Source: Ruegeria lacuscaerulensis (GTDB lineage Bacteria; Pseudomonadota; Alphaproteobacteria; Rhodobacterales; Rhodobacteraceae). Taken from it: a stretch of 64,000 bases of DNA. The notes beneath the pieces are model-generated. The model was given only the letters and a program-made list of their open reading frames with translations, did no database searches and was not told the DNA's origin. Shown here in pieces: positions 26,060 through 36,931 of the stretch. The stretch is from assembly GCF_013033355.1 (NCBI RefSeq), contig NZ_WQDY01000010.1, forward strand, positions 62,001-126,000, read 5' to 3'. The number at the start of each line of letters is the position of its first letter. Positions within the stretch are counted from its first letter, which is position 1. The position numbers and the translations under genes are program-made.

Positions 26060-27535
26060 TTAGACCGAAAGACAGACGTATTTCATCTCAAGGTAGTCCT
26101 CCATTCCATGATGGCTGCCTTCGCGACCCAGACCGGATTGTTTGACACCGCCAAAAGGCCCAACCTCGGTCGAGATGATGCCCGTGTTCACGCCGACTAT
26201 GCCATATTCCAATGCCTCGGCCACCTTGTAGACGCGGCTTAGATCCTTGGCATAGAAGTAAGAGGCCAGACCAAAGATCGTGTCATTGGCCATGGCAATC
26301 ACGTCATCTTCGTCCTCGAATTTGAACAGCGGGGCCAGCGGGCCGAAGGTTTCATCCTGCGCGACCATCATGTCCTGCGTCACGCCAGTTACGATGGTGG
26401 GCTGGAAGAAGGTGCCACCCAGATCATGCGGCAGACCCCCAGTCAAAACGGCACCGCCCTTATCGGTGACGTCCTTAATATGCTCTTCGACCTTGGCGAC
26501 CGCCTCTGCGTTGATCAGCGGGCCCGTGGTCGTGCCTTCGGACAGGCCATCACCAATCTTCAGCGCCTCAACGGCGGCTTTCAGTTTAGCCGCGAAAGCG
26601 TCATAGACACCTGCCTGCACGTAGATACGGTTCGCGCAGACACAGGTCTGACCATTGTTGCGGAACTTGCACAGCATTGCGCCCTCGACCGCGGCATCCA
26701 GATCTGCGTCGTCAAACACGATGAACGGCGCGTTGCCGCCCAGCTCCATCGAGCATTTCATGACCTGATCGGCCGCTTGTTTCAGCAGGATACGGCCCAC
26801 TTCGGTCGAGCCGGTAAAGGTCAGTTTGCGCACGCCGGGGTTTTCGCAGAACTCCTTGCCGATCTCGCTGGCGCTGGAGGACGGCAGCACGTTGAAAACG
26901 CCCGCCGGAATGCCAGCCTGTTCGGCCAGAACGCCCATGACCAGCGCTGACAAAGGTGTTTCCTTAGCAGGGCGCGCAACAAAGGCGCATCCGGCCGCCA
27001 GTGCCGGCGCGGCTTTACGCGTAATCATCGCGTTGGGAAAGTTCCACGGCGTGATCGAGGCTGCAACGCCTATGGGTTGCTTCAGAACCATGATCCGCTT
27101 GTCGCGCTGATGGCCCGGGATCATCTCACCGTAAACCCGCTTTGCCTCTTCGCCGAAGAATTCGATGAAGGACGCACCATAACCGATTTCGCCAATCGCT
27201 TCAGCCAGCGGTTTGCCCTGTTCGGCGGTCAGAATCTTGCCCAGATCCTCGGCGTTTTCCATCATGAGGTCGAACCAGCGGCGCAGGATAACTGCGCGTT
27301 CTTTACCAGTCAGTTTGGCCCATTCCTTTTGCGCTGCCTCGGCCTGCGCAATCGCACCTGCTACCTGCGCGCGGCTTAGGTCCGCGACCTCGGCCACGAC
27401 ATCTCCGCGCGCGGGGTTCGTGACGGCAAACGTGCCGTTGTCGCCGTCCACCCAATGACCGCCAATATAGGCCTTGGTTGCTAGGAGATCGGGGTTTTTC
27501 AGGATGGATTTCAGATCGGTTGTCGTGTCCAGCAT
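26060..27535 (-). CDS. gabD: Succinate-semialdehyde dehydrogenase (NADP+)
   Basis: 491 residues of the aldehyde dehydrogenase superfamily. The NAD(P) region shows ITPWNFPNAMITRKAAPALAAGC, the catalytic glutamate is in MELGGNAPFIVFDDAD and the catalytic cysteine in FRNNGQTCVCANRIYVQ. The C-terminal GIVGVNTGIISTEVGPFGGVKQSGLGREGSHHGMEDYLEMKYVCL is typical of GabD. It oxidises succinic semialdehyde to succinate, joining GABA breakdown to the citric acid cycle. Related semialdehydes such as glutarate semialdehyde are possible. It is transcribed alone with its own terminator. Confidence 0.93.
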   Translation of the reverse strand: MLDTTTDLKSILKNPDLLATKAYIGGHWVDGDNGTFAVTNPARGDVVAEVADLSRAQVAGAIAQAEAAQKEWAKLTGKERAVILRRWFDLMMENAEDLGKILTAEQGKPLAEAIGEIGYGASFIEFFGEEAKRVYGEMIPGHQRDKRIMVLKQPIGVAASITPWNFPNAMITRKAAPALAAGCAFVARPAKETPLSALVMGVLAEQAGIPAGVFNVLPSSSASEIGKEFCENPGVRKLTFTGSTEVGRILLKQAADQVMKCSMELGGNAPFIVFDDADLDAAVEGAMLCKFRNNGQTCVCANRIYVQAGVYDAFAAKLKAAVEALKIGDGLSEGTTTGPLINAEAVAKVEEHIKDVTDKGGAVLTGGLPHDLGGTFFQPTIVTGVTQDMMVAQDETFGPLAPLFKFEDEDDVIAMANDTIFGLASYFYAKDLSRVYKVAEALEYGIVGVNTGIISTEVGPFGGVKQSGLGREGSHHGMEDYLEMKYVCLSV

Positions 27536-27720: not shown

Positions 27721-27740
27721 GATGTAAATAGATGTAACAT
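27721..27740. repeat. Tandem 10-base repeat in the promoter of the 27.8-35.8 kb cluster
   Basis: GATGTAAATA is followed directly by GATGTAACAT, one helical turn apart, 45 bases before the first gene of the cluster and within the 249-base gap to divergent gabD. It could hold a regulator or overlap the promoter; I cannot place -35/-10 boxes securely. Confidence 0.35.
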
Positions 27741-27784: not shown

Positions 27785-28864
27785 ATGTCGAACCATAGAT
27801 TTGACGCGTTGATCGAAGAAACGCAGGCGAAAGTCCGCGAAAGCCAGTCGCAGATCGAAAACCTGACCTCGCGCATTGACGCCGCCCGGGCCAAGATTGG
27901 CACGGCCGAGGCCGATATCGACATCGAAAACGCTACGCTGGAAGATGTGCACGCCCATACTGAGGTGATGAACGCCAATATTGCCGAGCTGATCATGGGT
28001 CTGGATGACGTCACCAACGCGTTCTCCAAGGATTTCGACGAGATGCGCTCGAAAACCGGGTGGGAGAGTTTTGTTGGCATCTTCGCCAAGGGCAAGTCCG
28101 AATCCATGCGGCAGGAGCGGATGCGCACCGCCAATATCGACGACAAGCTGCAGGACCTGATCGCCAAATCCGACGTGATCGTGAAACTGCTGGAAGGGCA
28201 GCTGTCCGTGCTGGAGGAACAGCGCGTGAAGGTCGAGGACAACCTGACCGGCACGCTGGATGATCGTGAGGCGACAGTGGCCGAACTGGAAGCATTGCGG
28301 GCTGAAATCCAGGGCATGGACCCGACCATCATTACGCTGGAAAACAAGATCAGCGTCGAACAGGACGCCGCCGCGCGCACTCAGCTTGAAACCGAGCTGG
28401 CCGAACTGAACAAGCAATACAACGCCAAGGTTCAGGAAGAGCAGGTCAAGCTGGCTAAGTCTCAGACGCTGGAGCGTTACATTGAAAAGGGCAAGACCTG
28501 GGTCGATTCACTGCAGAACCAGGCGGCGACGCAGATGGTGCTGATCAACAAGCTGCAGACAGACACGCAGCAGCGCGTGGTGCTGTACGATGCCCTGACC
28601 AAATCGCTGAAAACCGCGCAGCAGCAGGACGTGGCCCACCGCATCAACGAGATCGGCGTGCAGACCGACCAAGAGGCGCAGACGGCCATGGCCGCCATCG
28701 GCACAGCGACCAACCAGAAAATGGCCGACATGCTTGAGGCGCACGAAGGCCACATGGTCTTTGCCCGCGACGTGCTGGAGAAAAAAGCCAAGGCGGATGA
28801 ACGCTTTGCCCGCCGGTTCGCGGCGATTGTCGAGAAGCATGATAAGAATTTGTATGGTGGATAA
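27785..28864 (+). CDS. Long coiled-coil protein, first gene of the uncharacterised cluster
   Basis: 359 residues, cytosolic, almost entirely alpha-helical with heptad character (residues 8-70, 120-215 and 290-345) and no membrane segment. The stretch NQAATQMVLINKLQTDTQQRVVLYDALTKSLKTAQQ vaguely recalls TelA/toxic-anion-resistance proteins, but I see no firm signature. Gene A of the run. The ATG at 27785 sits nine bases after AGGGG; a GTG two codons earlier has poor spacing. It may be a membrane-peripheral scaffold for the AAA+ ATPase encoded further on; that is inference from context only. Confidence 0.75.
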   Translation: MSNHRFDALIEETQAKVRESQSQIENLTSRIDAARAKIGTAEADIDIENATLEDVHAHTEVMNANIAELIMGLDDVTNAFSKDFDEMRSKTGWESFVGIFAKGKSESMRQERMRTANIDDKLQDLIAKSDVIVKLLEGQLSVLEEQRVKVEDNLTGTLDDREATVAELEALRAEIQGMDPTIITLENKISVEQDAAARTQLETELAELNKQYNAKVQEEQVKLAKSQTLERYIEKGKTWVDSLQNQAATQMVLINKLQTDTQQRVVLYDALTKSLKTAQQQDVAHRINEIGVQTDQEAQTAMAAIGTATNQKMADMLEAHEGHMVFARDVLEKKAKADERFARRFAAIVEKHDKNLYGG

Positions 28865-28884
28865 GAAAAGGCTGGTTGCGACGA

Positions 28885-29172
28885 ATGCCATTTTTCTTGG
28901 AGCAAGACAAAAGCAAGACATGGGTCGAGCGAAACGGTGAGCTTGTTTGGGGTGCAATTGGGCTCGCTTTTCTAATCTTTTTTCTGACGATGATGGTGAA
29001 TGGATTCTACTTATTGTGCGGTGCTAGTGCTCTCGGAGCTATTTGGTCTACCTATCGGTTGGAGATGTTTCGCAGGTCGCAAGCAATTAACAGCGTACCA
29101 ACCAACAACCATGGCGATGGCGGGCAGTCGCCCGGCCGGGATTTTGGTGGCTTTGGCGGTGGTGATGCATGA
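28885..29172 (+). CDS. Small membrane protein with glycine-rich tail
   Basis: 95 residues (MPFFLEQDKSKTWVERNGE...), with two adjacent hydrophobic stretches (about residues 20-55: LVWGAIGLAFLIFFLTMMVNGFYLLCGASALGAIW) and a Gly/Asp-rich C-terminus (RDFGGFGGGDA). No family recognised. It lies 20 bases after gene A; a TTG at 28876 is an alternative start with a better placed AAAAGG. Its stop overlaps the mini-ORF at 29169 (ATGA). The gene is visibly AT-richer than its neighbours. Confidence 0.6.
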   Translation: MPFFLEQDKSKTWVERNGELVWGAIGLAFLIFFLTMMVNGFYLLCGASALGAIWSTYRLEMFRRSQAINSVPTNNHGDGGQSPGRDFGGFGGGDA

Positions 29173-29273
29173 CTAACCCCACCCGAGAGCGTGTCAGCCT
29201 GACCGGCACCTTTGCCCCTTTTGGGCTAAAAGTGGTTGTTAAGAAAAGCTTTAGGAGTTTGTGCGGCGGATGA
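29169..29273 (+). pseudogene. Duplicated 5-prime remnant of the downstream 372-residue gene
   Basis: A 34-codon ORF begins MTNPTRERVSLTGTFA and is clearly a diverged copy of the start of the gene at 29547 (MTNPVQDHVGLTDTFA); about 40 of the first 48 bases are identical. After codon 16 the similarity ends. It overlaps the preceding stop (ATGA) and its own TGA overlaps the ATG of the next gene at 29270, so it may still serve as a coupling peptide. It looks like the original gene junction left behind when the small gene between was inserted. Confidence 0.65.
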
Positions 29274-29554
29274 ACGATTTTGAGAAGAAAGCTCTGAGAT
29301 TGTTCGTCCTCGTTGCAGCTTGTTCCAGCGGGGTCGCTTTCACGTTCGGAATCAGTTTCGCGAATAAAACTGCGATCTCGATCGGCTCGGTAGCTGCAGC
29401 GATGGGGGTGATTGTTGCGTTCCTAGGGGCCGCTCAACTCTGTTTAGAAAGTTTCAGAAACTACGGGTTGGGCGAAGGCATCGAATTTTTGTATGGCAAA
29501 GATCATGCCCGGCACATGTTTGGCGAAAACTACAAAAAGCCCCCAAATGACTAA
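29270..29554 (+). CDS. Small two-helix membrane protein
   Basis: 94 residues (MNDFEKKALRLFVLVAACSSG...). Two hydrophobic helices (about 10-30 and 36-60) are followed by a soluble tail LCLESFRNYGLGEGIEFLYGKDHARHMFGENYKKPPND. No family recognised. The ATG overlaps the stop of the remnant ORF upstream; a GTG three codons earlier is closer to AGGAG. It ends inside the first codons of the following gene (8-base overlap). AT-richer than the large genes around it and bounded by the duplicated MTNP start, it appears to be an inserted cassette. Confidence 0.6.
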   Translation: MNDFEKKALRLFVLVAACSSGVAFTFGISFANKTAISIGSVAAAMGVIVAFLGAAQLCLESFRNYGLGEGIEFLYGKDHARHMFGENYKKPPND

Positions 29555-30665
29555 CCCCGTCCAAGACCATGTCGGCCTGACCGACACCTTCGCCTCGCGT
29601 CGCTACTTCCGCAAATTCGAGGTGATCACCGTCCACCTCCTTCGCGTGGCCGCGACGATGGAGGCCGAGGGCGCGATCAGCAAGCAAGAGGTGCGGATCG
29701 TGTCGCGCTACCTCTCCGGGTTGCTCTATACGTTCCGGGCACTGTCCATGAAATACCTGCTGGTCGGGCGTGATACGGGGCGGTTCTTTGGCAGCCTTGC
29801 CATGGACAAGCGCGACAGCGGGTTTCCGGTGGCGGCCGAGTTGCTGACCATGGCCAACGACGCGCAGCAGGCGCAGGTGCATCTGGCCAATATGCCATCA
29901 GCCGACGATCTGAAAACCGACATGGTGCGCACCATCATTGGTGACTGCGAGATACCGACCAAGCTGCAATTCGCACTGTCGCAAAGGCTCTATTACGAGG
30001 AATTGCTGAAAGGACAGCTGTTCTGGGCCCGTAACGATCCCGAATGCCATTGGCTCGGGAATGAAGGGGATCGGCGCAAGTTTCTGATCCACTGGGCGGT
30101 TTATGACAGCCAGATCAACCTGCCAGTCATCTACATGATGAAGTTGGAAGACAGCGGGCGCACGGCCCTGCCCAAGGACCAGCGTCGCTGGCCCGAGGTA
30201 CAGGCGCATCTGATGGCGCAGTCTTTGGGCGGGCTGAAGCTGGTGACGATCGCCACGGGCTTCGATCAGGATTTTGACGACCTGCACCCCAAACACCTGC
30301 GCCGCATCCATGTGGGCCCGATGTATTCCTCGGCCTATACGGAACAATCCGGACCCCTGCGGCAAGTGCTGGAGGACGCGCAGGCCCCCGAAGGTCAGGA
30401 TTGGGCGCTGGCCTGGACCATGGAACAGTTGGAAAGCGAGGACGTAATCGAAGAACGCGCTGGGTGGTTCTCGACCGTCGAGCGAGAGGTGTTCGCCTTG
30501 GACCCGTTCGGCGGGCAGGGGGCCGAGACCGGAGCGACGCAAACGCAGCGGTCGATCATCCTGCCCCAGCGCCCGTTTCAGGTGCTGGCCGAGCGCAGCC
30601 CGCCAGGGTTTGCTGATGTGCGCAAATTCGTTGTCAGCAAGACCGGGCAGGTGTTGAGATACTAG
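29547..30665 (+). CDS. Soluble protein of unknown function
   Basis: 372 residues, no signal peptide or membrane segment. It begins MTNPVQDHVGLTDTFASRRYFRKFEVITVHLLR and is mixed alpha/beta with helical N-terminal half (VSRYLSGLLYTFRALSMKYLLVGRDTG) and a later segment FARNDP-like/ KFLIHWAVYDSQINLPVIYMMKLEDSG. I do not recognise a domain. GC and codon use match the host chromosome. It lies between the small inserted genes and the AAA+ ATPase gene, so it is a core member of the cluster. Its first 16 codons are duplicated at 29169. Confidence 0.72.
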   Translation: MTNPVQDHVGLTDTFASRRYFRKFEVITVHLLRVAATMEAEGAISKQEVRIVSRYLSGLLYTFRALSMKYLLVGRDTGRFFGSLAMDKRDSGFPVAAELLTMANDAQQAQVHLANMPSADDLKTDMVRTIIGDCEIPTKLQFALSQRLYYEELLKGQLFWARNDPECHWLGNEGDRRKFLIHWAVYDSQINLPVIYMMKLEDSGRTALPKDQRRWPEVQAHLMAQSLGGLKLVTIATGFDQDFDDLHPKHLRRIHVGPMYSSAYTEQSGPLRQVLEDAQAPEGQDWALAWTMEQLESEDVIEERAGWFSTVEREVFALDPFGGQGAETGATQTQRSIILPQRPFQVLAERSPPGFADVRKFVVSKTGQVLRY

Positions 30666-30722
30666 TTTTTTCGCATCGGGCGGAAGTATTTTTGAACAGA
30701 AGAAGCAACGGCGGTTTTTTAA

Positions 30723-32654
30723 ATGAGTTTGACGTCAGATCAGATGGAATTGCGCGAAGACGACATTCGCAAGCATTACCCGGCAGCGACCGCTTTGCTG
30801 AACGGGTTCGAACACGCGCCGCGGATTGCCAAACCGGTTGAGGCAGCGGTTGAGCGGTCTCCGGGTGTTTCGACCGGACGGCGGTTTCGATCCACGACGC
30901 CGGGGCTGGTGACGCGGCGCACCGCGCGCGCGGACGGGGTGCATCTGGTTGAGCGGATCGAGGCTTCGGACGACGGCGATACACTGGTCTCGCCACCGCA
31001 AGCCACAACACAGCAAGCCATTCGCCGGGCGATTGCGATCGCTCTGGGCGTGGCCGAGGCTTATGCGGAACAGACCCCGCTGGCCGATCTGAAACGCGCC
31101 AACCTGGCGGGGGATCTGCCCGCCGCGCGCAAAACAGAATTCTCGGAATTGCTGACGGCTGAGGCTTTGATCACGGCCCATACCTTCGGGAATGCGCTGG
31201 CCTACCTGATGTCTTCGCATCTGGGCGAGACCACCGTCGACCTCGGCGAGATCGAAGAGGTCCTGACCGACAATGGCCAGCTTGCGTTGCATGGTGCCCT
31301 GTGGGAACTGGATCAAGTGTTGGCAAAACACGCCCCCGATGATGTGCATCTGATCGCGGCCACGAGCGCCTATGCTGAACAACTGATGGACAAGGCTGCC
31401 CTGCGCGCGCAGTCGGCGGATCATTTGGCCCCGTTCCAGAACGCCGCGTGGCATATTGAGGCCGACGACCTGACGATCCGGGGGTTCGAGCCCGCCTCCA
31501 AGGCCAAATCCACCACCCTGACCATGACGTTCAAGAAGCCGAACGAGGTGGTGGGCAACCACATCGCCAAATATCAGGCCATGAAGCTGGCCAAGATGCT
31601 GATGGCTTATGACTTTGACCGCCGCCTGAATCCGTTTGCGGAACTCGGCGGGTTCATCTTTACCTTCATGGGCGACGGCAAACCGGGCACAGGCAAGACC
31701 ACCCTGATCCAAATGATGGCCGGGCTGATCAACGATTATTGCCAGAACGCGGGCTATCCGTTCCGCTATCAAAACCTGAGCACCGACAATATCGACAGCT
31801 ATCAGGGCAAATCCGGCCAGAACGCCAAGGCGTTTATCAACACGATCATCGACCCCTCGGTTATCGGCTTTGGCACCATCGATGATATCGACCAATTGGC
31901 AGGCAAACGCGGCGACCGGCAGTCCTCAGCCGGGCAATTGGAAATCACCGCTGTGCTGATGGAGAGCTTTGCGGGTGCCAACACCGTTGTACGCGGCAAC
32001 TGCACCTTTGGTATGTTCTCGAACTACCCTGAGAACGTGGACGATGCTCTGCGCCAGCGGGCGGGAGCGCGGTTTTTGGTGGACGGGCCGCAGACGCGCG
32101 AAGACTACATCGACATCTTGCATCTGCTGATGGGCCGCAACCATGACATCCCGCTGGGCGAGCACGAGGCTTATGCCGCGCAAGAAATCAAAAAGGCTGT
32201 TGCCGCCAGTTTCGAAAGCCATGCGCGCCCGCATGAGGATGCACTGATGCAGGTCTATGACCGGGTCTCCGGCGAGATCGGCCAGATGGATACGATCGCC
32301 AAGCTGGGCACTTATCTCAAGGCGATACAGCAAGCGGATGAGCGGTTCACGGGTCGCGCGATCAAGAACATCACCGACGCGGTCAAGGTCCGCGCAATGG
32401 ATTTCGAACTACCTGATGAGTGGATGGAGAACCCCGACCTGTTCCTGTTCCGCGACTACGACACCAAAAAGGCAATGATCGAGGACCTGCGCCAGCCGAT
32501 CACGGTGGACATGGTGATGCAGGAAATCAACCGCTATGCCGACAGTGAATTCCGCTATGCCGACAAGAGCGACGAGGTCGCCATCGAGAACGCCGTCCGC
32601 GAAATGGGCCGGATGGAAGAAGCCAAGCGGCGGTATCTGAAGGGGAAAACATGA
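30723..32654 (+). CDS. AAA+ ATPase with a long N-terminal domain
   Basis: 643 residues. The ATPase core has Walker A GDGKPGTGKTT (317-327), a Walker B-like FGTIDDID (383-390), a sensor-1 region GMFSNYPENVD around residue 434, and arginine-finger candidates R444/R446 in DDALRQRAGARF. The first 310 residues form an alpha-helical region without a known domain, and the C-terminal 180 residues form a helical lid. It may remodel or gate a membrane-bound partner among the small membrane proteins encoded alongside. It starts 57 bases after the previous gene without a clear ribosome-binding site and overlaps the next gene by four bases. Confidence 0.82.
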   Translation: MSLTSDQMELREDDIRKHYPAATALLNGFEHAPRIAKPVEAAVERSPGVSTGRRFRSTTPGLVTRRTARADGVHLVERIEASDDGDTLVSPPQATTQQAIRRAIAIALGVAEAYAEQTPLADLKRANLAGDLPAARKTEFSELLTAEALITAHTFGNALAYLMSSHLGETTVDLGEIEEVLTDNGQLALHGALWELDQVLAKHAPDDVHLIAATSAYAEQLMDKAALRAQSADHLAPFQNAAWHIEADDLTIRGFEPASKAKSTTLTMTFKKPNEVVGNHIAKYQAMKLAKMLMAYDFDRRLNPFAELGGFIFTFMGDGKPGTGKTTLIQMMAGLINDYCQNAGYPFRYQNLSTDNIDSYQGKSGQNAKAFINTIIDPSVIGFGTIDDIDQLAGKRGDRQSSAGQLEITAVLMESFAGANTVVRGNCTFGMFSNYPENVDDALRQRAGARFLVDGPQTREDYIDILHLLMGRNHDIPLGEHEAYAAQEIKKAVAASFESHARPHEDALMQVYDRVSGEIGQMDTIAKLGTYLKAIQQADERFTGRAIKNITDAVKVRAMDFELPDEWMENPDLFLFRDYDTKKAMIEDLRQPITVDMVMQEINRYADSEFRYADKSDEVAIENAVREMGRMEEAKRRYLKGKT

Positions 32655-32977
32655 CCGGCGGCTGGATCCTGATCTTCGGATCGCTGATCGGCGCGTGCCT
32701 GTTTTTCGGCATCACGGTCGCGCGTCGCCGCGCAGCTGCCCGGCCCGCCTTTGCAATGATGGCGCTAATTATTTTTGCGGTTACTTACGTTTGGAGCGCG
32801 TTGTTTGAAATCTGGATCAACGGTGCCTCGGTCCTGCGCCCCGCCTCATTGGTCCACGCCTTTGGTCCGGGTCAGGCCCCTTCACATTTTCTTGCGCAGG
32901 CGTTGTTCTGGTTCGTCCCCGCAATGATCTTGGCCGGCGGAGCGTATGCAGTCACGCATCGCCGGAAAAGGACGTAA
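32651..32977 (+). CDS. Small three-helix membrane protein
   Basis: 108 residues with hydrophobic segments near 5-24, 35-55 and 83-102, separated by a loop WINGASVLRPASLVHAFGPGQAPSHF that is probably on the periplasmic side. Ends in basic residues RRKRT. No family recognised. It is coupled to the ATPase gene by an ATGA overlap, making a direct functional link likely. Confidence 0.65.
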   Translation: MTGGWILIFGSLIGACLFFGITVARRRAAARPAFAMMALIIFAVTYVWSALFEIWINGASVLRPASLVHAFGPGQAPSHFLAQALFWFVPAMILAGGAYAVTHRRKRT

Positions 32978-32981
32978 TGAC

Positions 32982-33278
32982 ATGACTTTAACTCTCGCAA
33001 TCTCTGGTTTGGCGCTTGTACTGGGCCTGATCCTGCCCCTGCGTTGGGGTGTGTTCGGATTTCTGGGCGCCGTTGCGGTTCTGTATCTGACTCAGTTCGG
33101 TGTGAATGCAGGCAGCGGCTTTGAAGGCGCGTCGTGGGACGAGACCCTGATCCTGTTTGAAGGCAGTGTGGTGTCTTATATCGGCTTCAACTTGCAGATC
33201 ACCGCGCGGGCGTTTGCGCTGCCACTGTTGGTGCTGGCAATTGTGGTTGTTGGTCGTCTAAATAGAATGATGAGGTGA
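32982..33278 (+). CDS. Small membrane protein
   Basis: 98 residues with three hydrophobic helices (about 2-20, 24-42 and 72-92) and a loop NAGSGFEGASWDETLILFEG. The ATG at 32982 follows AAAAGGA; the annotated longer frame from 32946 overlaps the preceding gene. No family recognised. Its TGA overlaps the GTG start of the next small gene. Confidence 0.65.
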   Translation: MTLTLAISGLALVLGLILPLRWGVFGFLGAVAVLYLTQFGVNAGSGFEGASWDETLILFEGSVVSYIGFNLQITARAFALPLLVLAIVVVGRLNRMMR

Positions 33279-33523
33279 CGAACTTGAGAGTGATCATCGC
33301 CGCAGTCTTATTTGCAGTCATTCTGGCTGTATTTATGACCACCACTATTTGCGGTTGGGAAGGGCTGATGCCCGAAAACTTCCGGGTCATTCGTAGTTGT
33401 GGCACAACGGATTCACCAAACGAAGTTTTTCTCAGCTTCCTAGTATTTGGGTGTTTCCTCGGCGTGATCTTATCAATTTTGCTTCTTCTGGAGCGATGGG
33501 TTTTCAAAAGGTATCTTCCATGA
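33275..33523 (+). CDS. Small two-helix membrane protein with cysteine-containing loop
   Basis: 82 residues, start GTG coupled by a GTGA overlap to the preceding gene and ending in an ATGA overlap with the following one. Helices lie near 5-22 and 53-72; the loop between contains two cysteines (ICGWEG and RSCGTT) that may form a disulfide outside the cytoplasm. AT-richer than neighbours, like the small genes at 28.9 and 29.3 kb. Function unknown. Confidence 0.58.
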   Translation: MTNLRVIIAAVLFAVILAVFMTTTICGWEGLMPENFRVIRSCGTTDSPNEVFLSFLVFGCFLGVILSILLLLERWVFKRYLP

Positions 33524-34857
33524 TCCGTCTCATCGAAAAAGGCCTGATGTTTGGCAACCTCGTCCACATTTCCAGCCCGGCCTTGGTCGAGCGGTATAAC
33601 CGCGCGTTGCAGCATTTGGCGGGCAAGATCACTGATCTGACAGATTTCCATGTGGATATCTCGGGCTATTCGCCCGAAGTGGGGCAGGAATTGGACGACC
33701 CGCTCTACCTCAACCCCAACGGGGTCAACCGGCAATTCATCCTGTTGACGACCGAACAGAAACGCGCGCCGTTGCTGAACGTCAAATTCTCGACCTCGCG
33801 CGATATTCTGCGCGAGTTCATCGAGATGAACGAGGCGCAGTTGTTCGCCCTGACCGCCACGGATGCGGTGGCCGGAGAGCTGGTGAACTCGGTCTTCAAA
33901 CTCACCACGTCCGCCGATCTTCTGAACCTACGCAAGATTGAGATTGAAGCCGACACGGTGGGCGGTACTCTGCGCAGGGCTGAACAACTTGCAGGTATGG
34001 TCGAACAGTTCAAAACCCAAGAGGACGCTTGGTTCGACGATGTGCTGATCGCCAAAATGATCGAAACCGCCAAAGAAACCGGGGACGTCACCCGAAACCC
34101 CGTTCACCTGCGTCACACTGCGTTCGAACAGCGCAATTTCTGGACGGCGCATTTCGGCGGGCTCTACCTGTTCCCTGACCTGGACTATCCGGCGGCGATT
34201 TGCATGGGCGAGCGGGCTGATGATTTGCCGTTGAACCACGTGCTCGATCCGGTGCAACGGCACCAGATTGCGGCCTTCCTGAACGATAATTCTCTGGTCG
34301 AGACCATCATCGAGGCGCGCGGCGTGAACTCGGCTGCTGTGTTGCAGCAAAAGATGGATTTCCTGACCATCCATGCTGCAGCTGACGCAGGCGTTGACCT
34401 GACCGGGCTGGACCGCAGCGATATGCGCCGTCTGGCCCGCAACCACGCTGATCACCTGCCCGAGGCCTATCATGGCCTCGCCCAGTTGTTGCGCTGGGCC
34501 AGTGACGGAGGGCCGTGGCCGCGGATCACCTCGGACCACCCAGCTTATTTCTATACGCTGCGCGCCGCCGACACGCCGAACCGCGATCTGATCAACATGC
34601 TGTTGGCCGAATTGGCCCCGCTGGACCCGCGCCAAATGTTCATCTGCCACAAAGAGCTGTTCTACCGGACCTATTCCACCTGGCCGGACACCAAGAAAGC
34701 CTATGTTGCCGACTTCCTCGCGCGCGAGTATCAGGTGGACAAGGCCGGTGCCCGCGCCGCGCTGTTTGGCCATGAACCGGACATGAGCGGCACCGACCGG
34801 GTCAGCGACGCGGTCATCGCGCGGGTCGGCCCCTGGGGCGCGGTAGGGAGAAGCTGA
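33520..34857 (+). CDS. Soluble protein of unknown function
   Basis: 445 residues, no membrane segment. N-terminus MIRLIEKGLMFGNLVHISSPALVERYNRALQHL, then a beta/alpha mixture with DDPLYLNPNGVNRQFILLTTEQKRAPLLN; the second half is largely helical, with FYRTYSTWPDTKKAYVADFLAREY near the end. I believe it belongs to a Rhodobacterales-centred family of unknown function, but that is from memory and unverified. Coupled by ATGA to the small gene upstream and abutting the next. It is the second large soluble member of the cluster. Confidence 0.72.
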   Translation: MIRLIEKGLMFGNLVHISSPALVERYNRALQHLAGKITDLTDFHVDISGYSPEVGQELDDPLYLNPNGVNRQFILLTTEQKRAPLLNVKFSTSRDILREFIEMNEAQLFALTATDAVAGELVNSVFKLTTSADLLNLRKIEIEADTVGGTLRRAEQLAGMVEQFKTQEDAWFDDVLIAKMIETAKETGDVTRNPVHLRHTAFEQRNFWTAHFGGLYLFPDLDYPAAICMGERADDLPLNHVLDPVQRHQIAAFLNDNSLVETIIEARGVNSAAVLQQKMDFLTIHAAADAGVDLTGLDRSDMRRLARNHADHLPEAYHGLAQLLRWASDGGPWPRITSDHPAYFYTLRAADTPNRDLINMLLAELAPLDPRQMFICHKELFYRTYSTWPDTKKAYVADFLAREYQVDKAGARAALFGHEPDMSGTDRVSDAVIARVGPWGAVGRS

Positions 34858-35124
34858 ATGATCGTCGCAATCCGTTTTCTGATCCCCTTACTGGTCATTC
34901 TGACAGTGATTTATGTCGGGTTGTCGATCTATTCCCGTCTGATACGCCGTCGTAAACTGATCGCACATTGGGAAAAGAAAGGGCTGCACGGCGATCGTGA
35001 CGCATTTCTACAGCGGGGGATGCGGCAGTATGATAACTCGTTTCGAAAGAAACTGTTGCTGGGTGTCTATGTCATCCCGCTGGGGGGCATTGCCCTGCTG
35101 ATCTATATAACAAATTTCATGTGA
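34858..35124 (+). CDS. Small membrane protein with central basic loop
   Basis: 88 residues: an N-terminal helix (FLIPLLVILTVIYVGLSIY), a basic cytosolic loop SRLIRRRKLIAHWEKKGLHGDRDAFLQRGMRQYDNSFRKK and a C-terminal helix (LLLGVYVIPLGGIALLIYI). It starts immediately after the preceding stop and lies 11 bases before the DUF1523 gene. No function known. Confidence 0.65.
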   Translation: MIVAIRFLIPLLVILTVIYVGLSIYSRLIRRRKLIAHWEKKGLHGDRDAFLQRGMRQYDNSFRKKLLLGVYVIPLGGIALLIYITNFM

Positions 35125-35135
35125 GGGCCGAATAG

Positions 35136-35783
35136 ATGGTCTATATCAAATGGGCATTCATCATCGTCTTCTGGGGGCTTGTTGCCTCGGTTCTGGAATA
35201 CACCCTGCCGCAGCAGGATGTGGTGCGGATCGTCAAGACCGAGGTGCGGCGCGTCGATTTCGGTGAGAACTCGATCTTCTGGGCGCAGCAGGATACCGGG
35301 CAAGAGGGCGCGCAGACCGTCAATCGCGATGTGCGCTTTGTGGAAACCTTCCGCCCCAATGGCAAACCGCGTGTTTACCGCAATGAAGATACCGGCTGGG
35401 GATGGCCACCATACTTCAAACTCGATAGTTCGAACCTGCAGGCCGAACTGACCAATTTGGTCTCGACTGCGGATAACCCGCAATGGGTGGTGCTACGCCA
35501 TTACGGCTGGCGTAATCAGCTAATGTCGATCTTTCCAAATGCTGTTTCTGTTCGCCCGGTCGATAGCCCCGATGTACGGCTGATACCTTGGTTCAACATC
35601 ATTTTCCTGACCGTCTTTTTCGCGATCGTCTGGGCCATATGGGTGCGTTGGCGCAGGTTCCGCGCGGCGCGGGTCGATCCCGTGATCGAAAACGTCGAAG
35701 ACGGGTTATATGCCGCCGGGGATGCGATTGGAGAGCAAAGCAGCAGGTTCAGGAAGTGGCTGGATAGCTGGAAATCCAAGTAA
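35136..35783 (+). CDS. DUF1523 family membrane protein
   Basis: 215 residues with a membrane anchor at each end (about 5-22 and 152-170) and a periplasmic domain between: LPQQDVVRIVKTEVRRVDFGENSIFW, DVRFVETFRPNGKPRVYRNEDTGWGWPPYFKLDSSNLQAE, then SVRPVDSPDVRLIPWFNI. These match DUF1523, a family I know mainly from Rhodobacteraceae. The cytosolic tail is amphipathic and basic. It closes the eleven-gene cluster; the next genes, of the flagellum, converge on it. Confidence 0.85.
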   Translation: MVYIKWAFIIVFWGLVASVLEYTLPQQDVVRIVKTEVRRVDFGENSIFWAQQDTGQEGAQTVNRDVRFVETFRPNGKPRVYRNEDTGWGWPPYFKLDSSNLQAELTNLVSTADNPQWVVLRHYGWRNQLMSIFPNAVSVRPVDSPDVRLIPWFNIIFLTVFFAIVWAIWVRWRRFRAARVDPVIENVEDGLYAAGDAIGEQSSRFRKWLDSWKSK

Positions 35784-35836: not shown

Positions 35837-36931
35837 TTAACGCACCACGAATTCCGCGTGCAATGCCCCAGCGGCTTTGATCGTTTTCAGGATATCGATC
35901 ATGTCGCGGGGGGAAACGCCTAATGCGTTCAGGCCGGCAACAACCTCAGATAAGGTTGTTGCCTCGGGGATTTCAGCCAAACCAGTCCCTTCTTCTTCTT
36001 CGATCCCGGCGATCGTTCTGGGGACAACAACTGTTTCACCACGCGCAAACGGGTTGGGTTGTACTGCAATAGGGGCTTCTTCTACCGTGAGGGTCAGGTT
36101 CCCCTGCGAGACTGCAACGCGCGAAATGCGGACTTCTTGGCCCATGACAATCGTGCCAGAGCGCTGATCCACGACGACGCGCGCTTTGGTTTCCGGCTCG
36201 ACCAGAATGTTTTCGATCCGACCCAACGCATGCGCAGTCGAGATCGACTGTGTCGCGGCAATGTTCAACTCCACCGTGCCAGAATCTCGCATGATGGCAA
36301 CGGGGCGATTAAATTCCGTGTTGATTGCAGACTCAATCCGGCCAGCAGTAGTAAAATCCGGCTCTCTGAGCGCCAGCCGCATTTGTGTCAGTGACGAAAG
36401 GTCAAAATCAATCTCGCGCTCGACCCTCGCCCCAGAGGGGATGACGCCAGAGGTCGGAACCCCGCGCACGACAGACGCGGCTTCGCCCTCGACAGCGGCA
36501 CCACCTGCCAGAACGGTGCCTTGGGCGACCGCATAGATCTGACCGTCCGCTGCGTTCAAGGGCGTCATGATCAGGGTGCCTCCTAAAAGACTGTTGGAAT
36601 CCCCGATGGCTGAAACCGTCACATCAATCTGGCCTCCGACCCTGGCAAATGGTGGCAAGCTGGCGGTTACCAACACGGCGGCCACGTTCTTGGGCCGAAA
36701 ATCCTCACCGTTCACGTTCACGCCCAAACGCTCGAGGATGTTGGACATGATTTCCTCGGTGAATGGGGAATTGCGCAGCCCATCCCCTGTTCCGTTCAGG
36801 CCAACCACAAGGCCATAGCCGACAAGGTCATTTCCCCGAACACCATCAAAGTCCACGAGATCTTTCAACCGGATCGCGCCGGCCGAGGCCAGACCAGGCA
36901 GCAACATCAAAATGAAAACCAGAACTCTCAT
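35837..36931 (-). CDS. flgI: Flagellar P-ring protein
   Basis: 364 residues with a signal peptide (MRVLVFILMLLPGLASA). The conserved start of the mature part, IRLKDLVDFDGVRGNDLVGYGLVVGLNGTGDG, and the C-terminal TTLSEVVAGLNALGVSPRDMIDILKTIKAAGALHAEFVVR are diagnostic. FlgI forms the ring around the rod in the peptidoglycan layer. It is last of the fliI-motB-flgE-flgK-flgL-flgI block and overlaps flgL by four bases (ATGA). Confidence 0.97.
   Translation of the reverse strand: MRVLVFILMLLPGLASAGAIRLKDLVDFDGVRGNDLVGYGLVVGLNGTGDGLRNSPFTEEIMSNILERLGVNVNGEDFRPKNVAAVLVTASLPPFARVGGQIDVTVSAIGDSNSLLGGTLIMTPLNAADGQIYAVAQGTVLAGGAAVEGEAASVVRGVPTSGVIPSGARVEREIDFDLSSLTQMRLALREPDFTTAGRIESAINTEFNRPVAIMRDSGTVELNIAATQSISTAHALGRIENILVEPETKARVVVDQRSGTIVMGQEVRISRVAVSQGNLTLTVEEAPIAVQPNPFARGETVVVPRTIAGIEEEEGTGLAEIPEATTLSEVVAGLNALGVSPRDMIDILKTIKAAGALHAEFVVR

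Follow-up and report, generated by a model that had tools for sequence, protein, structure and literature searches.

ESCRT-III/Vps4 and PspA-type pairs are membrane systems in which an AAA ATPase is combined with a long helical protein, and in polymorphic toxin loci, orphan cassettes stack together with displaced fragments of core genes. The core proteins of BREX include PglZ, BrxL, and BrxC. Nuclease effectors embedded among the core genes of BREX loci have been described (PMC12839542). The locus presented in this study, which lies in a 64,000-nucleotide stretch of Ruegeria lacuscaerulensis DNA (the window), resembles BREX in being a conserved operon with diverse defense genes amid constant core genes; however, its core is made up of AAA+, coiled-coil, and DUF6638 proteins, and its cargo is mostly small membrane protein. 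No BREX model was matched at E ≤ 1 by any of the ten window proteins scanned (g01 to g09 and g11). The likeness to ESCRT-III/Vps4 and PspA is one of idea only, i.e., an AAA ATPase adjoining a long helical protein, whereas the coiled coil has no sequence match to them and its structure model is of low confidence. As in polymorphic toxin loci, displaced core-gene fragments mark inserted cargo, but the cargo lies between, not inside, the core genes, and no delivery system was found. Four genes of the locus recur with their order unchanged in records from Vibrio and Sinorhizobium, where they are annotated as an "ATP-binding protein," a "DUF6638 family protein," and two hypothetical proteins, with no function given; unlike the window locus, the two Vibrio copies viewed are free of cargo. 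A literature search that covered few subscription papers and preprints returned no mention of DUF6638 and no description of the operon, and the libraries searched gave no clear match to an already described system, in line with the initial annotation of the cluster as uncharacterized.

Gene organization of the locus

The locus comprises 11 ORFs, all on the + strand between positions 27785 and 35783 and all judged to be real (Table 1), flanked by gabD (26060-27535, - strand) and flgI (35837-36931, - strand); the initial annotation of eleven genes running in one direction between gabD and the flagellar block is thus confirmed. Two of the encoded proteins are large and soluble, one is long and helical, one is an AAA ATPase, and one is a DUF1523 protein; the remaining six are small, with transmembrane (TM) windows called from hydropathy only. 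This inventory agrees with the one first given, except that only one of the two large soluble proteins, g04, is without a recognizable domain, as g09 is a DUF6638 protein. With the chosen starts, which include ATG 29547 for g04, neighboring genes overlap at g03/g04, g05/g06, g07/g08, and g08/g09 (4 of 10 junctions), g09/g10 abuts, and the other five are gaps of 4, 11, 20, 57, and 97 bases, so that "mostly overlapping" was too strong a description; a start of g07 at its first ATG (32946) would produce a fifth overlapping junction. The cluster is nevertheless a tightly packed and probably cotranscribed unit, with the AAA+ core beside inner-membrane proteins, as had been proposed.

Table 1. Features of the locus in the window
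Feature	Position	Strand	Remarks
Palindromic operator-like site ATGTAA-N7-TNACAT	27722..27740	+	44 bases before the coiled-coil start codon
g01, core, helical coiled-coil protein, 359 aa	27785..28864	+	Most conserved core protein
g02, cargo slot S1, small membrane protein, 95 aa	28885..29172	+	Cargo family of 3 (128 loci)
Displaced copy of g04 bases 1 to 48	29169..29216	+	83% over 48 bases, E 1.9e-10
g03, cargo slot S1, small membrane protein, 94 aa	29270..29554	+	Singleton, no relative among cargo ORFs
g04, core, soluble protein, 372 aa	29547..30665	+	No known domain
g05, core, AAA+ ATPase (predicted), 643 aa	30723..32654	+	PF00004, Walker A GKPGTGKT
g06, cargo slot S3, 3-TM protein, 108 aa	32651..32977	+	Family of 4
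g07, cargo slot S3, 3-TM protein, 98 aa	32982..33278	+	Family of 14, all in S3
g08, probable cargo slot S3, 2-TM protein, 82 aa, GTG start	33275..33523	+	31% match in L073 only
g09, core, DUF6638 protein, 445 aa	33520..34857	+	PF20343
g10, 2-TM protein, 88 aa, paired with DUF1523	34858..35124	+	Profile match also before DUF1523 in stretches without the AAA gene
g11, DUF1523 protein, outer domain between two TM windows (residues 1 and 146)	35136..35783	+	PF07509

The least certain of the eleven genes are g03, a singleton, and g08, which the second ORF caller missed and for which there is a single match. SLATT-like scores of g03 were far under the cut-off (E 0.04 and 0.022). In the families of g02, g06, and g07, differences are least frequent at codon position 2 and most frequent at position 3, with rates at positions 1, 2, and 3 of.105/.092/.254,.303/.198/.463, and.321/.200/.537, respectively.

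Conservation and distribution of the core genes

The comparison set consisted of 128 loci, the window included, 117 of which are complete. Six genes, i.e., those of the coiled-coil protein, g04, AAA+, DUF6638, g10, and DUF1523, keep one order as a block in 117/117 complete loci, which exceeds chance, whereas relatives either lack g02, g03, g06, g07, and g08 or have unrelated genes in their place, so that these five are not fixed subunits. The locus therefore has two parts, six conserved genes and five cargo genes, and the initial proposal of a single complex built from all the gene products does not hold.

In Vibrio and rhizobia, the constant part consists of the four genes for the coiled-coil protein, g04, AAA+, and DUF6638, found in the same order in 18/18 distant loci. 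Among 198 genomes of the family, 83 have the AAA gene, and all 83 have a DUF6638 match. DUF1523, on the other hand, is present in 169 of the 198 and is thus separable from the AAA+ module; of 20 selected genome stretches lacking the AAA gene, 15 also had a g10 profile match just before DUF1523. In the rhizobial copies, DUF2333 occupies the position held here by g10-DUF1523. Deletion remnants were observed at L084 and L228, and a genome of another class (L312) carries a Rhodobacteraceae-like copy (AAA, 72%).

Individual core proteins

The mean column identity of the coiled-coil protein is 82% in 22 Rhodobacteraceae sequences, versus 78% for the AAA protein, and g01 is 41% and 43% identical to the Vibrio and Sinorhizobium copies, respectively. 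Its matches to PDB sequences begin at E 0.19 and include neither ESCRT-III nor PspA, and in PADLOC-DB 2.0.0 it gave only LmuB, NsnC, and JetC scores of 0.0011 or worse. TelA (PF05816) is absent among the matches listed for the 22 members (the best 25 of 34 families, E ≤ 1). Alignment to TelA with hhalign gave a probability of 0.1 to 0.5%, where the TelA-versus-TelA control itself reached only 30.6%; homology to TelA thus finds no support in these weak profile tests. The structure model of the coiled coil (pLDDT 62, pTM 0.40) is of low confidence and unusable. For g04, which is 29% identical to the Vibrio copy and 31% to the Sinorhizobium copy, no match at E ≤ 1 was found in Pfam, NCBIfam, or PADLOC, and PDB sequences matched only at E 0.37 or worse.

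The g05 protein matches PF00004 at residues 319 to 452 (8.1e-12; 46.2 bits, cut-off 21.2). A GxPGTGKT Walker A motif is present in 16/16 diverse copies. Glu is the usual residue at the second acidic Walker B position of AAA ATPases; the corresponding stretch in g05 is TIDDID, in which Asp takes the place of this Glu, and the Asp-Asp pair is conserved in 16/16 diverse copies. From its sequence, g05 is an AAA+ protein of the classical kind and a predicted ATPase. Its PADLOC-DB 2.0.0 scores are confined to TRIP13-, IetA-, and mad8-type ATPases, the CBASS TRIP13 score being weak (5.9e-06).

The g09 protein matches DUF6638 over positions 1 to 439 of 439 (6.1e-222; 737.6 bits, cut-off 27), and g11 matches DUF1523 (1.2e-72; 243.4 bits, cut-off 23). 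The AF2 model of g09 (pLDDT 82, pTM 0.78) had no Foldseek match at E ≤ 0.001, the best being E 2.7 in PDB and 0.93 in BFVD, and the best VIA Z-score was 4.5 over 59 residues; all of these are at background level. In PADLOC, g04, g09, and g11 had no match. Comparison of the six conserved proteins with one another by hhalign, a tool that is weak by the TelA control, gave probabilities of at most 3.1% and no support for their being related.

Two hypervariable cargo slots

Cargo is found in two hypervariable slots, S1 between the coiled-coil gene and g04 and S3 between the AAA and DUF6638 genes; a gap of more than 200 bp is present in 74/117 loci at S1 and 103/117 at S3, compared with 13/117 at S2 and 0/117 at the two downstream junctions. 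A codon model trained on the core alone called 157 ORFs and missed AT-rich cargo, whereas a two-model caller returned 262 ORFs in 142 clusters, 104 of which are singletons. The operon strand holds 260 of the 262; this caller docks minus-strand ORFs 3 points, and without the codon model and the penalty, the longest ORF (at least 150 aa) was still on the operon strand in 59 slots versus 5. Median junctions are +3 and -1 after the core gene and -4 before the next gene. All multi-member families (38/38) are confined to one slot, and among pairs of loci with 93 to 96% identical AAA, only 32/257 have an S3 cargo family in common.

Most cargo genes encode small orphan membrane proteins, and most have no family match; a TM window is present in 75/91 S1 and 121/159 S3 cargo proteins. 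The G+C content is.54 in the slots versus.59 in the core. A slot may hold up to four cargo genes. No cargo was called in 10/120 loci, and the Vibrio operons L293 and L295, among others, are also cargo free, several distant operons being compact. Four loci (L076, L085, L158, and L172) leave no room for cargo, which indicates that the core has a job of its own.

Defense-like proteins among 129 cargo representatives include Mrr type IV (2.4e-31), DUF2971/PDC-S31 (1.2e-23), and AbiJ_NTD4 (1.8e-09), together with HNH, DrmA-like, and weakly HEPN-like proteins. These matches show the presence, rather than any enrichment, of known defense genes in the slots, and an antiviral reading of the cargo rests on a minority of it. 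Hint, thioredoxin-like, and lipoprotein-like proteins, clearly not of a defense kind, were also present, and the toxin-type names among the Pfam-matched families are one ParE and antitoxins.

Displaced core-gene ends

Displaced g04 starts were observed in S1 of the window, L092, and L097, and displaced AAA tails in S3 of L086, L100, and L101. The ATG of the copy in the window overlaps the g02 stop codon, and the copy is read as a scar of cargo stacking. The six displaced ends and the slot fidelity of the families suggest that cargo is exchanged by recombination at the ends of the core genes; however, selection could also cause the fidelity, and the 38/38 count is a raw one. Further matches at L049 (19 bases) and at L071 and L080 (31 to 47 bases) were taken as chance. 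At L182, an AAA-tail match is seen at the protein level and is absent from the displaced-end search. Other routes may bring in part of the cargo, since an IS element lies in S3 of Sinorhizobium meliloti pSymB and a DUF559 gene is often found in rhizobial S3.

Interpretation of the locus

On balance, we lean toward reading the locus as a conserved four-gene AAA+ machine placed before the more widespread g10-DUF1523 pair, in an operon with exchangeable, partly defensive cargo. Homologous recombination within the conserved core genes on either side of a slot would bring cargo in, and cotranscription and translational coupling behind one regulated promoter would keep it there. The cargo would include accessory defense genes, so that the small orphan membrane proteins may in many cases be antiviral, of the exclusion or abortive type. 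More tentatively, an AAA+ hexamer, partnered by g04 and DUF6638, could act on and remodel the coiled-coil protein, which would be its substrate or adaptor, at the inner membrane next to g10-DUF1523 or, in rhizobia, DUF2333; the AAA+ and coiled-coil proteins are linked by neighborhood only, because the coiled-coil model is unusable. In a bolder version, which seems unlikely to us, alphaproteobacteria and Vibrio share a new antiviral machine of the AAA+ type whose operon captures, through recombination at its own core-gene ends, and expresses a fast-changing set of effectors, most of them small antiviral membrane proteins of new families.

We also doubt that immunity is the job of the core itself, with the cargo supplying interchangeable effectors, as happens in modular defense systems that keep the sensor or ATPase constant and vary the effector. 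An AAA+ protein with variable membrane and nuclease-like partners, its patchy presence (83/198 genomes), the deletion remnants, the operator-like site, the copy in another class, and the weak TRIP13 score are consistent with this; the loci without called cargo or room for it, the compact operons of Vibrio and several other distant bacteria, the slots with up to four cargo genes, and the lack of a PADLOC family for core proteins beyond generic AAA and coiled-coil matches argue against it. If the slots were instead neutral sites that tolerate operon-sparing insertions, cargo would be mostly drifting orphans with no common role, as the many singletons, the lower G+C content, and the mixed content with toxin-antitoxin pieces and DUF559 would suggest. 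The strand bias, the median -4 spacing to the next gene, the constraint evident from codon-position rates in three window families, and the predominance of membrane proteins make this rather improbable.

The roles initially suggested, i.e., envelope stress, membrane remodeling of the PspA/ESCRT-III type with an AAA ATPase, or TelA-like toxic-anion tolerance, draw on the classical AAA+ protein, its long helical partner, and the adjoining DUF1523. They are not supported by the coiled coil, which has no PspA, ESCRT-III, or TelA match (the TelA tests being weak and the fold model too poor) and no PDB match at E < 0.1, and they leave the cargo variability unexplained; we regard them as quite improbable. 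Small, diverse membrane proteins stacked with displaced core ends recall orphan immunity cassettes, which would make the locus one of interbacterial competition with diversifying immunity genes, but the operon has no toxin-delivery gene and its Pfam-matched cargo few toxin-type names, so this is very unlikely. One inner-membrane complex of eleven subunits would account for the tight spacing in the window and can hardly be maintained, with 5 of the 11 genes absent or replaced in relatives.

Under the preferred reading of a core with exchangeable cargo, eleven unfamiliar genes become a testable plan. The four-gene core is carried in alphaproteobacteria and Vibrio without functional annotation, and the small size and position of the members of the 142 cargo clusters make phage screening easy. 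Since the exchanged genes are small, many encode membrane proteins, and a few resemble known virus-defense genes, the slots may be worth searching for new bacterial defenses; if the cargo is antiviral, the AAA/DUF6638 junction would be a landmark to such genes in roseobacter genomes (83/198 genomes of the family).

Operator-like site upstream of the operon

The palindrome is exact in 28/28 Ruegeria-type loci. Outside this type, it is exact in 47/94 loci and has one mismatch in 10 more; mononucleotide shuffles gave at most one mismatch in 0.36% and 0%. The other 37/94, with two or more mismatches, and two distant loci are without a good match, which counts against the preferred reading with its one regulated promoter. 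The exact pattern occurs at only three distinct sites in the Ruegeria genome of the window. Regulation by CenR was rejected, as its published motif, TGA-N8-TGA (PMC9275681), differs from the palindrome. At L236 and L246, a LysR gene has the palindrome before its own start, which is a lead only.

Gene content of the locus

The locus is an uncharacterized four-gene AAA+ core (coiled coil, g04, AAA, and DUF6638) in an operon that bears fast-changing, tightly spaced cargo. The eleven-gene cluster of the initial annotation, which was tentatively read there as one inner-membrane complex, is real as an observation, but the unit was wrongly drawn, since it combines this core with cargo: g02 and g03 in the gap between the coiled coil and g04 (slot S1) and g06 to g08 in that between AAA and DUF6638 (S3); slot S2 separates g04 from AAA. 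Four of the ten junctions among the eleven ORFs overlap. Pfam matches were obtained for g05 (AAA), g09 (DUF6638), and g11 (DUF1523), and the other eight ORFs had no Pfam match above the cut-off. NCBIfam and PADLOC searches of the ORFs other than g10 contributed nothing beyond nonspecific matches to coiled-coil and AAA families and low scores for g03.

Features of the locus and of related sequences (window positions unless prefixed; G000, genome of the window; C, contig; L, compared locus)
Feature	Position	Strand	Context
Eleven ORFs	27785-35783	+	between gabD and flgI
Displaced g04 start	29169-29216		overlaps g02 stop
Two further palindrome copies	G000:C23:305867-305943 (L235:4868-4944)		between small membrane-protein gene and neighbouring gene
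Palindrome at LysR-type gene	L236:1501-1519; L246:1501-1519		directly before start codon
DUF559-like endonuclease-domain gene and IS4-like element ISRm16	L294:11106-12851		slot S3, S. meliloti pSymB
Solitary AAA gene	L124:7001-8935		MAG contig
TelA gene	G000:C32:167718-168710		elsewhere in genome of the window

The AAA domain of g05 is of the classical kind, and its Walker B motif is TIDDID or a close form in all 16 diverse copies; the usual residue at the position of the second Asp is Glu. A true TelA gene (PF05816, 2.5e-108) is also present in the genome. The predicted structure of DUF6638 is good (pLDDT 82, pTM 0.78), and fold searches with this model found no known fold; that of the coiled coil is poor. 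A tentative reading is that the conserved helical protein is what the ATPase acts upon, close to the inner membrane. PMC9339283 lists a 112-aa protein of mycobacteriophage Waterfoul, labelled DUF1523, among growth inhibitors (+++).

Conservation of the core

The comparison set consisted of the window, 59 loci (leaving out the deleted locus L084), and 80 of the 428 relatives found; removal of 12 loci identical to another gave 128 loci, window included. Among named genomes, the nearest relatives of the genome of the window are Ruegeria. The coiled coil, g04, AAA, DUF6638, g10, and DUF1523 are all present in 117 of these, in identical order in every case. Six of the 11 incomplete loci are cut at contig ends (L123, L143, L148, L153, L161, and L182). 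L125 and L135 keep the left half (coiled coil, g04, and AAA), and DUF6638, g10, and DUF1523 were not found within 7 kb; in L124, where AAA is 82% identical, the 7 kb to its left and to its right contain none of the other core genes; g10 is not detectable in L152; and L165 has a broken coiled coil. Among the 117 complete loci, gaps exceed 200 bp in 74 (S1), 13 (S2), and 103 (S3), and in none at the DUF6638/g10 and g10/DUF1523 junctions.

Ten of the 120 loci having three measurable slots contain no called cargo, and all gaps are below 90 bp in L076, L085 (where DUF6638 is a split match), L158, and L172. Searching AAA by tblastn identified 10 plasmid records and no phage record, with identities of 52-53% in Sinorhizobium, Shinella, and Rhizobium and 38-39% in Vibrio. 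The two Vibrio records viewed carry the coiled coil, g04, AAA, and DUF6638 alone in a compact arrangement; in S. meliloti pSymB, S3 of the four-gene core is occupied by a DUF559-type gene and an IS, and DUF2333 follows the core. Four-gene order is maintained in all 18 distant loci (twelve from AAA-positive genomes, four records, and two more), two of these records having been included in the query set. BLASTP confirmed the distant partner proteins, at 41 and 43% for the coiled coil, 29 and 31% for g04, and 27 and 31% for DUF6638.

Effectors embedded among core genes are described for BREX in PMC12839542, and on this precedent the arrangement is not wholly new; the four-gene core itself may be new.

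Distribution and loss

Among 198 genomes of the family, AAA was found in 83, DUF6638 in 90 (including all 83 with AAA), and DUF1523 in 169. Four of the seven genomes with DUF6638 and no AAA are 71-77% complete, in two (L291 and L292) the gene lies at the end of its contig, and in the seventh, G188, the match covers no more than the final 59 positions of the profile. Of 20 selected stretches around DUF1523 that lack AAA, 15 contain g10 and 7 contain gabD (at least 74% identity), with 5 of the 7 oriented as in the window. On this distribution, the AAA+ module appears to be gained and lost ahead of a g10-DUF1523 pair that is older. Two loci are deletion remnants: L084 (coiled coil 1-41 and DUF6638 412-442) and L228 (DUF6638 388-444 and coiled coil 341-358, the latter at only E 0.005). 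At wider range, and counting the genome of the window, AAA was detected in 7 of the 337 class-level genomes and in 26 of the 398 phylum-level ones. One genome from another class of the phylum (G598) has a compact copy of all six genes, g10 and DUF1523 among them (L312; AAA 72% identical), which was likely acquired by horizontal transfer.

Cargo content and turnover

Calling with two codon models gave 262 cargo ORFs (91 in S1, 12 in S2, and 159 in S3), which form 142 clusters including 104 singletons; 260 lie on the operon strand. Hydropathy windows indicate a transmembrane segment in 75/91, 7/12, and 121/159 ORFs of S1, S2, and S3, respectively. The median distance from the core stop to the first cargo start is +3 in S1 and -1 in S3; between the final cargo ORF and the core start that follows, it is -4 in both.

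Cargo turnover is fast. For pairs with both slots occupied, which are not mutually independent, a common family was found in 13/230 (S1) and 32/257 (S3) at 93-96% AAA identity and in 11/77 and 14/101 at 96-98%. The 28 Ruegeria-type loci, with S1 occupied in 25 and S3 in 28, have 18 distinct S1 and 23 distinct S3 family sets, empty set counted. In the window, g02, g06, and g07 belong to families of 3, 4, and 14, g03 is a singleton, and g08 has one weak match. By eye, the S2 cargo of L058, L069, L099, L105, L107, L128, and L131 resembles lipoproteins or secreted proteins of small size that have an N-terminal stretch in common.

Each of the 38 clusters with more than one member is restricted to a single slot. 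The first 48-56 bases of g04 are repeated within S1 in the window, L092, and L097 (86 slots above 90 bp searched), and 104-150 bases from near the AAA gene 3' end are repeated within S3 in L086, L100, and L101 (118 slots). Because of these displaced ends and the slot fidelity, the sequences suggest that cargo moves by recombination within core-gene ends. In the window, g02 would originally have been the gene coupled to g04, and the insertion behind it of another cassette, consisting of g03 and a new g04 start, would have followed.

Representatives of 129 clusters were scanned, the remaining 13 of 142 being below 58 aa. Pfam matches at E<=0.01 were obtained for at most 24 of them (24 families, one member each); at E<=0.001, PHROGs and NCBIfam gave 15 and 5 families. 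A defence flavour, by family match, is real for part of the cargo: an Mrr type IV enzyme, AbiJ_NTD4, an HNH nuclease, DUF2971 (PDC-S31), and a DrmA-like ATPase, with weak matches to HEPN-like proteins. Further matches are DUF559, ParE, Phd, and RHH proteins, and Hint and thioredoxin-like proteins are clearly non-defence. The DUF559-like gene on pSymB (L294) lies in S3 together with ISRm16.

An operator-like palindrome

The palindrome ATGTAA-N7-TNACAT lies approximately 60 bases upstream of the coiled-coil start. It is exact in all 28 Ruegeria-type loci; in 94 other loci it is exact in 47, with one mismatch in 10 and two or more in 37, and it is missing at two distant loci. Shuffled upstream sequences reached one mismatch in 0.36% and 0%. 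The exact pattern occurs at the operon and at two more sites in the genome of the window, the latter upstream of a gene that we take to be DUF2852 and bounded on the other side by one that we take to be glnE. A similar pair, approximately 58 bases apart, is found in many Ruegeria genomes. Matches were present in 27/27 genus genomes searched, and a reversed control pattern gave 4 matches overall. The same palindrome also precedes a LysR-type gene (recognized by eye) in L236 and L246, which is a possible candidate for an autoregulated regulator.
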